Assembly (NCBI RefSeq): GCF_045679555.1
Contig: NC_092093.1
Span: forward strand, 65,421,575 to 65,485,574
DNA from: Salvelinus alpinus
Taxonomy: Eukaryota > Chordata > Actinopteri > Salmoniformes > Salmonidae
Reading direction: 5' to 3'
Length of the DNA stretch: 64,000 bases
The notes beneath the pieces were generated by a model. That model searched no databases and was not told the DNA's origin. It worked only from the letters and a program-made list of their open reading frames with translations. Positions 1-1,967 of this stretch are shown here, piece by piece. Both the position numbers and the translations under genes were made by a program. Positions within the stretch are counted from its first letter, which is position 1. The number at the start of each line of letters is the position of its first letter.

Positions 1-1967
1 TCCTCCGCAGTAAGATGGACATCCCCTGTACCTATCAGGTAAACATTTGTTTGGTTATATGAAATGACACAAGGGCAGCCATAACGCTTGCATCACCATT
101 TTTTATTATTATATATATATATTTTTTAATTAAGATGAATTTAACGACATTAGTACATATCACTGCAAGATCATTCTCTCATATGCTTCTCTTGAACCAA
201 TAAAAAAGATCAAAGATATTCAGCAATTCTTGAAGGACAATGGAAGTTCAGTAGAATAAGTACTTGTTGGCCTATTTTTATAAATCATTTTGTAATTTCT
301 ACAATGTAGGTTGAAGTGATGTATGAAGACGAGCCACTGAAAGATTACTACACATTAATGGACATAGCCTACATCTACACCTGGAGAAGGGTAAGAAACA
401 TAACATTAATGGACGTAGCCTACATCTACACCTGGAGAAGGGTAAGAAACATAACATTAATGGACATAGCCCACATCTACACCTGGAGAAGGGTAAGAAA
501 CATAACATTAATGGACATAGCCCACATCTACACCTGGAGAAGGGTAAGAAACATAACATTAATGGACGTAGCCTACATCTACACCTGGAGAAGGGTAAGA
601 AACATAACATTAATGGACGTAGCCTACATCTACACCTGGAGAAGGGTAAGAAACATAACATTAATGGACATAGCCTACATCTACACCTGGAGAAGGGTAA
701 GAAACATAACATTAATGGACATAGCCCACATCTACACCTGGAGAAGGGTAAGAAACATAACATTAATGGACGTAGCCTACATCTACACCTGGAGAAGGGT
801 AAGAAACATAACATTAATGGACATAGCCCACATCTACACCTGGAGAAGGGTAAGAAACATAACATTAATGGACATAGCCCACATCTACACCTGGAGAAGG
901 GTAAGAAACATAACATTAATGGACATAGCCCACATCTACACCTGGAGAAGGGTAAGAAACATAACATTAATGGACGTAGCCTACATCTACACCTGGAGAA
1001 GGGTAAGAAACATAACATTAATGGACATAGCCTACATCTACACCTGGAGAAGGGTAAGAAACATAACATTAATGGACATAGCCCACATCTACACCTGGAG
1101 AAGGGTAAGAAACATAACATTAATGGACATAGCCCACATCTACACCTGGAGAAGGGTAAGAAACATAACATTAATGGACATAGCCTACATCTACACCTGG
1201 AGAAGGGTAAGAAACATAACATTAATGGACATAGCCTACATCTACACCTGGAGAAGGGTAAGAAACATAACATTAATGGACATAGCCCACATCTACACCT
1301 GGAGAAGGGTAAGAAACATAACATTAATGGACATAGCCTACATCTACACCTGGAGAAGGGTAAGGAACATGATATTAAAGGGGAAGTTTGTAAAAACATG
1401 CAATTAAAGGCAATGTAAACATTTTTAACAAGTTGAAAGTAATGTTTTTTTTTGTAAATGATTGCATGACTTTTTATTTCAACCTTTGGCTCTGTGATGT
1501 TTCATAGGCCTACTTTAGAGTGTGGAATGCATGAAAGTTCGCAGTTCAAAAGCTTTATTATCCATGAAGGAAAAAATCATGATTGCCCTGCAAGTTGAGA
1601 CAAAGTAGCTCTAAGTATTACAAATATTTTTCAGAATGGCCCTTTGCCATTGAAGTACCGCGTCAGACCTAGCTGTAAGAAGATGAAGATGAGTCATCTG
1701 CAGCAGGAGGGACAGAACAGCACTGGTCGGTCCGCTGAGAGCGACTCAGCCAGCGACAAAGCCTGCAGCCCTGCCGCTGTCCCCTCCACCTCCTCCTCCT
1801 TGCCCAGCCCTGGCACCCCGGTGCAATCGCCACACCCACACTTCCCCCACATCTCCAAGCCTGTCAATGGAGCCTCCACCTCGGCCCCAGCCCCTACCAG
1901 ACCCTTCCCCTTTGGAAAAAAACCACGGAAGGCCTCGCTGAATGGTTCTTCTGCATCCTCGGGATGA
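1..1967 (+). CDS. bmi1: Polycomb complex protein BMI-1 (PCGF4), last three coding exons
   Basis: BMI1 is the PCGF4 subunit of Polycomb repressive complex 1, a nuclear partner of RING1/RNF2 in H2A ubiquitination. Three exons are visible: 1-38 (partial; [13 protein letters not shown]), 310-390 ([18 protein letters not shown]... to TWRR) and 1635-1967 ([20 protein letters not shown]..., then a Ser/Pro-rich tail with [19 protein letters not shown] and a stop at 1965-1967). These match the RAWUL (ubiquitin-like) domain end and the PEST-like C-terminus of vertebrate BMI1 almost residue for residue. Splice phases agree: AGA AGG joins AAT GGC. The RING-coding exons lie off the left edge. The odd feature is the exon at 310-390, whose 3' half and donor are repeated 20 times in the following intron. 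Whether this is the bmi1a or bmi1b copy cannot be decided here. The family call is very secure. Confidence 0.95.
352..1376 (+). repeat. 51-bp minisatellite made of the bmi1 exon end plus its splice donor (20 copies)
   Basis: The unit is 51 bp: the last 39 bases of the bmi1 exon (from acattaatgg to ggagaagg) followed by the first 12 intron bases (gtaagaaacata). Exon ends fall at 390 and then every 51 bp to 1359, a span of exactly 19 x 51. Copies differ mainly at two sites (gacata/gacgta and cctac/cccac). Each copy keeps a strong donor AGG|GTAAGA (GTAAGG in the last). The length is a multiple of three, so the array is an open frame of [21 protein letters not shown] repeats continuous with BMI1. 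The minus strand is also open, but only because the sequence is periodic. Confidence 0.97.

Follow-up and report, generated by a model that had tools for sequence, protein, structure and literature searches.

The bmi1 array in its setting

The window, i.e. the whole stretch of 64,000 nucleotides of Salvelinus alpinus DNA analysed here (on the contig designated C8), carries exons of a bmi1 gene, a gene with Arm repeats in Pfam that we take to be spag6, and a polycystin-like gene matching polycystin structures (best E 1.9e-27) as well as the PKD and Polycystin_dom families of Pfam (Table 1). For the last of these, a shorter query gave no match against PDB at a threshold of 0.001 whereas a longer one did, and the Pfam comparison of seven proteins of the spag6 and polycystin-like genes returned no family for four of them. 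The bmi1 exon at 310-390, when joined to the exon at 1635-1967, matches the PDB BMI-1 chains (E 6.5e-55) across a junction free of any insertion, and residues 1-36 of the same join match the RAWUL domain of Pfam (3.9e-11). The point at which additional residues could enter, between R and N after residue 27, falls inside the RAWUL match.

Table 1. Features of the bmi1 locus and of the other splice-junction arrays (window positions unless a contig is named; a slash marks the splice junction)
Feature	Position	Strand	Description
Upstream intron of bmi1	39..309	+	271 nt
bmi1 exon	310..390	+	81 nt; last 39 nt are array unit 1
Minisatellite, 20 x 51 bp	352..1371	+	Unit of 39 exon bases + GTAAG[AG]AACAT[AG]; translates TLMD[IV]A[YH]IYTWRRVRN[IM]
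Intron of bmi1	391..1634	+	1244 nt with donor 1; 275 nt (1360-1634) with donor 20
Degenerate 10-bp stretch	1372..1381	+	ATATTAAAGG; 8/10 identical to the unit start ACATTAATGG 51 bp upstream
Last bmi1 coding exon, to stop	1635..1967	+
spag6 donor array	16874..17157	+	9 degenerate AA[AG]/GTGT copies (TCT..AA[AG]/GTGT) after the real donor
Polycystin-like acceptor array, 43 bp	54477..54959	+	11 acceptors CCATAG/GGAGATGGCA
Polycystin-like acceptor array, 42 bp with five 40-bp spacings	60296..61297	+	24 exon-start copies, 23 after AG and 1 after TG
Second bmi1 copy, with array	C10 17093724-17094795	minus	20 units of 51 bp; unit edges as on C8

The array straddling the 3' end of the bmi1 exon consists of 20 head-to-tail units at a spacing of exactly 51 bp, each composed of the last 39 bases of the exon and the first 12 bases of the intron. 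Many near-identical units of a length between 10 and 100 bp, arranged head to tail, make it a minisatellite; Tandem Repeats Finder, run on the window, reports it at 352-1378 (period 51, 20.1 copies, 97% matches, score 1935, far beyond chance). The donor reads AGG/GTAAGA in 19 of the 20 units and AGG/GTAAGG in unit 20, and the reading frame is open in all 20. Units 1-19 vary at two positions only, 13 (A/G, for I/V) and 19 (T/C, for Y/H), where the PDB BMI-1 chains have I and Y, respectively, while unit 20 has two additional G (positions 45 and 51) and reads VRNM. No significant higher-order pattern was found among the types of units 2-20 (longest repeated block, p 0.996; best shift, p 0.17; adjacent identical units, p 0.56). 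Intron gain by tandem duplication of exon sequence bearing AGGT would call for a repeat that provides the acceptor of the new intron as well as its donor; between positions 400 and 1372 there are 76 AG sites, and a crude pyrimidine count does not separate them from the true acceptor (0.67 at best versus 0.60). An exact search of viral_contigs with a 41-base unit pattern gave 0 matches. An earlier note made from the letters of this DNA had described a 20-fold, in-frame amplification of the bmi1 exon end and its donor, and the present analysis bears out the count, the unit length, the donors and the frame. Its span of 310..1634 was too generous, as it takes in unique exon (310-351) and unique intron (1382-1634) on either side of the exact repeat (352-1371) and the degenerate stretch that follows it (1372-1381).

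Exon sequence repeated in tandem within a gene is familiar from tandem exon duplications and mutually exclusive exons. The bmi1 array resembles these in that respect, but its unit contains only the exon end and the donor, with neither a whole exon nor an acceptor; the array does not extend to the acceptor of this exon, which is at 309. A closer likeness is offered by the human gene IFI6, in which Turri, Cuin and Porter reportedly described in 1995 a minisatellite of short units with multiple splice donors. According to excerpts of PMC4526556, the minisatellite of IFI6 (6-16, G1P3) provides one transcript with several splice donors, downstream repeat units serving as alternative donors. With a donor-like site placed across the exon-intron boundary in each unit (GTAAG[AG] in 20/20 units on C8 and, as described below, 18/20 on C10), the bmi1 array is a new and large member of this already known kind. 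It differs from IFI6 in its 51-bp unit with 39 exon bases, in its location in a Polycomb gene, in its presence in two duplicates and in that the use of downstream donors is only putative. Internal tandem repeats of human segmental duplications are likewise minisatellite expansions at exon-intron boundaries, giving rise to alternative splicing and new introns (excerpts of PMC2812944); the cases presented there have RNA support and few units (on average 30 bp repeated 4 times), in contrast to the 20 units of the bmi1 array, described here from the DNA. Among the listed matches of a literature search, no title names a splice-donor minisatellite of fish or an array in bmi1; one of these matches concerns a fish myostatin gene and has minisatellite among its words (PMC3045353).

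A second array on C10 and the history of the repeat

A search for further bmi1 copies in the window's own genome (2.37 Gb) retrieved a second array on C10. Starting upstream of bmi1 and continuing past it through the spag6 gene, the DNA around this copy is collinear with the window, which fits the duplication of a chromosome segment, and from the genome size and this synteny we infer that the two segments stem from the salmonid genome duplication. The unit-to-unit identity between the C8 and C10 arrays is 0.963 (0.964 for the exon part and 0.961 for the 12 intron bases), compared with 183/224 and 215/255 identical positions (82-84%) in the flanking introns, gap columns (68 and 233) excluded. 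Since the array-bearing exon itself differs at just 1 of 81 bases, part of the identity between the arrays is due to coding constraint; in addition, the 12 intron bases are few. The commonest unit on C10 (12/20) has exactly the sequence of the G type on C8 (5/20), and private variants are present in both arrays, so that neither is a recent copy of the other. The C10 donors read GTAAG[AG] in 18 units and GTAAAG, with a weaker U1 pairing (-6.2 kcal/mol), in the remaining 2. Two more bmi1-like exons, on C23, are followed by an ordinary intron with no array; they lie 1.13 Mb apart (50.69 and 49.56 Mb) in opposite orientation and are identical at 1801/2098 positions over 2.5 kb. In the last exon of the C10 copy, some positions that are conserved among the PDB BMI-1 chains are altered (KYGVRL for KYRVRP), which suggests that this copy may be under relaxed constraint.

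The unit is bounded by a direct repeat with a spacing of 51 bp (ACATTAATGG in the exon, A[CT]ATTAA[TA]GG in the intron). The ten bases that follow the last unit are ATATTAAAGG on C8, matching the unit start at 8/10 positions, and ACATTAATGG on C10, matching it at 10/10. A match of 8/10 at a distance of exactly 51 bp occurs at 0.14% of the window positions tested; if all spacings between 30 and 80 bp are allowed, the share is 12.8%, so the direct repeat is less striking when the spacing is not preset. The flanking 10-bp repeat may have seeded the initial slippage, or it may be what is left of one more unit. A direct repeat bounding the unit points to slippage or unequal exchange between copies 51 bp apart, by which a minisatellite would have been born across the 3' end of the bmi1 exon and would then have grown to 20 units.

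Highly similar tandem copies are a classic source of trouble for assemblers, and an assembly artefact has to be considered. On the other hand, the array occurs twice, on separate contigs, and each of the two has private variants of its own, discrete unit types and intact flanks; an artefact is in our judgement very improbable, and the second array makes a retained function possible. The equal copy number, 20 on C8 and 20 on C10, is notable and unexpected for an unconstrained minisatellite. A common ancestral array would best explain the shared unit type, count and edges, and the array is probably older than the split of the C8 and C10 duplicates and hence found in both. Doubtful, although it deserves consideration, is the alternative that the arrays grew in parallel from an inherited direct repeat or that sequence was transferred between the duplicates at a later time. 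With the direct repeat flanking the array at both loci, parallel growth would be expected to produce the same period twice, and arrays on splice junctions do recur within this window. It would, however, require the A to G change at unit position 13 to have occurred twice, the full 51-bp G-type unit being shared, and the equal copy numbers argue against it; moreover, the spag6 array of the window has no counterpart in its duplicate. The private variants on both sides argue against a recent transfer. As an array common to C8 and C10, the repeat offers a testable persistence time for a minisatellite fused to a coding exon.

As unit 1 is at once coding exon and array member, turnover of the array may overwrite the 13 codons with which the exon ends. 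A G at position 13 of the unit (I to V) is present in 20/20 units on C10, the coding exon included, as compared to 5/20 on C8, where the exon does not have it; both C23 exons and the PDB BMI-1 chains have isoleucine there. The occurrence of the substitution in all C10 units, the real exon among them, argues that the C10 exon was probably homogenised together with its array, although the mutation may instead have preceded the expansion. The bmi1 arrays allow the rewriting of a protein by homogenisation to be put to the test.

Other junction arrays and the weight of an open frame

Three other arrays in the window lie on splice junctions, and the bmi1 array is the open one of the four. Of the nine extra donors that follow the real one in spag6, seven shift the frame and two keep the phase but run into a stop; the spag6 donor of the C10 duplicate has no array. 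In the 43-bp array of the polycystin-like gene, 10/10 upstream acceptors lead to a stop and only the last one gives an open frame, and in the 42-bp array the same fate awaits 23/23 upstream copies, one of them having no AG site. With only the exon-nearest acceptor open in both polycystin-like arrays, the site at the exon edge must be usable if the gene works. None of these three arrays has readable extra sites, and an array on a splice junction need not, as a rule, be of use to the protein. The polycystin-like exon at 54940-55051 is matched only once in the genome and thus has no duplicate to compare with. The units of the 43-bp array show an apparent branch point motif (CTGAC), a pyrimidine tract and an AG; the 42-bp unit is itself open, despite the stops reached from all 23 upstream copies.

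Thirteen loci of the window were hand-picked from the Tandem Repeats Finder output (period at least 20, about 2.2 copies or more, simple repeats omitted). Four of these 13 lie on splice junctions (binomial tail 0.003-0.028, for an assumed 80-150 junctions), or 3 of 12 when the bmi1 array is excluded (0.020-0.095); with the number of junctions assumed and the test post hoc, the enrichment is only suggestive. Among the repeats of the window are also a pyrimidine-tract array with CTAAC/ATAAC-like motifs upstream of a spag6 acceptor (17167-17414), a 75-bp repeat of 2.2 copies lying in frame in a large polycystin-like exon, where it encodes a 25-residue repeat (27165-27330), and an apparently intronic 34-bp minisatellite of 41 copies in the polycystin-like gene (29027-30428).

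The earlier note had proposed that the choice of donor k would insert (k-1) x 17 residues into the RAWUL domain. The arithmetic, the anatomy and the frame of this proposal stand, but the open frame carries little weight as evidence of use. The 39 exon bases are necessarily open, a stop had to be absent from no more than four intron codons, and the chance of a period divisible by 3 combined with no stop in these codons is about 0.28; on this ground we rejected the open frame as evidence of function. Nor do the 40 open units of the two arrays amount to 40 tests, as a single shared unit sets the frame. Frame-keeping downstream donors are, overall, weak evidence of use. Of the variable positions, one of four is synonymous on C8, and three of five on C10 (21, 30 and 45 as opposed to 8 and 44); taken together, 4/9 appears somewhat above the expectation for transitions (14 of 51), but the sites are too few to show constraint.

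Donor choice and the protein

We consider it reasonably probable that the array was born at the junction, most likely before the C8/C10 split, and that donor 1 is chosen while the other 19 donors are spliced out. The 81-nt exon would then be defined across the exon with its own donor, and the remaining 19 would be removed within the 1244-nt intron, so that the most likely role of the array in the main transcript is a silent one. The strength of the sites does not favour donor 1, since the pairing with U1 is about equal for donor 20 and donor 1 (-9.4 versus -8.9 kcal/mol). The architecture of the introns may be more informative. By the classes of PMC9225289, the flanking introns on C8 (271 and 1244 nt) belong to LL and those on C10 (245 and 1461 nt) to SL, although the 250-nt class limit comes from human and minigene data and the 271-nt intron of C8, like the 275-nt intron that donor 20 would leave, is barely above it. 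Both classes are treated as exon-defined in the excerpted text of that study, according to which exons with a long downstream intron favour the upstream donor when splice-site strengths are near-equal, smaller exons are preferred, and minigenes with two identical strong 5' splice sites use the upstream site exclusively; before the strength filter, most events in all four classes favoured the downstream 5' splice site. Applied to the near-equal donors and intron classes found here, the rule given in these excerpts predicts the use of donor 1. Twenty near-equal donors in two gene copies with unlike intron lengths constitute a natural test of exon versus intron definition, and the use of each bmi1 donor can be read from ordinary RNA data.

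Definition across the intron would instead select the donor of unit 20 as the nearest to the acceptor, yielding a 275-nt intron that resembles the neighbouring one of 271 nt, a 1050-nt exon and 323 extra residues. The slightly better U1 pairing of donor 20 would agree with such an outcome; nevertheless, it would place 323 residues into a conserved domain and would run against the preference for smaller exons in the excerpts of PMC9225289, and the corresponding intron on C10 is 492 nt long, all of which makes it highly improbable. The main rival to the use of donor 1 is a leaky ladder of the kind seen in human IFI6, where downstream repeat donors are used (PMC4526556, as excerpted). Donors 1 to about 3 would be used appreciably, so that normal tissue would contain BMI1 with 0, 17 or 34 extra RAWUL residues but with no selected function, and both the 20 near-equal donors and the frame that is open in 20/20 units of either gene are compatible with it. 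However, identical competing donors led to exclusive upstream use in the exon-defined minigenes of PMC9225289 (as excerpted), and the PDB BMI-1 chains, which differ little from this protein over the join, lack an insertion at that point, indicating that insertions may be harmful; on balance, appreciable leakage seems rather unlikely to us. Under the preferred reading, with donor 1 as the main site, donor 2 or 3, if chosen now and then, would still lengthen the protein by 17 or 34 residues in frame, and such leakage would be less harmful than a frameshift, so that the array would be more easily tolerated.

A further reading is a Polycomb protein selected for variable length, in which a regulated choice of donors would insert functional 17-residue blocks and the array would be kept in both duplicates for that reason. 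It could draw on the same count, edges and open frame in the two genes, on the absence of the spag6 array from its duplicate, and on the synonymous share at the variable positions of C10. Against it stand the lower share on C8, a combined share with too few sites, and a frame fixed by one shared unit. We regard such selection as quite unlikely, and the alternative that the earlier note had itself allowed for, namely that the first donor is used and the array is silent, is better supported than its length-variable protein. A broader version, by which an array predating the C8/C10 genome duplication has retained about 20 in-frame units in both genes, supplies either BMI1 of graded length or spare donors and keeps overwriting the final 13 codons of this conserved exon, also appears unlikely as a whole. 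A structural model of the read-through product was set aside as well. AlphaFold2, run with no alignment on the translation of 310-1359, produced a beta-solenoid with a mean pLDDT of 94, but the five models ranged widely (94, 82, 61.5, 49 and 43), and confident beta-solenoids for perfect repeats are an AlphaFold2 artefact according to excerpts of PMC11795689. The read-through also matched SporV_AA, LPD28 and DUF6948 of Pfam above the cut-offs; these matches were taken as repeat noise.
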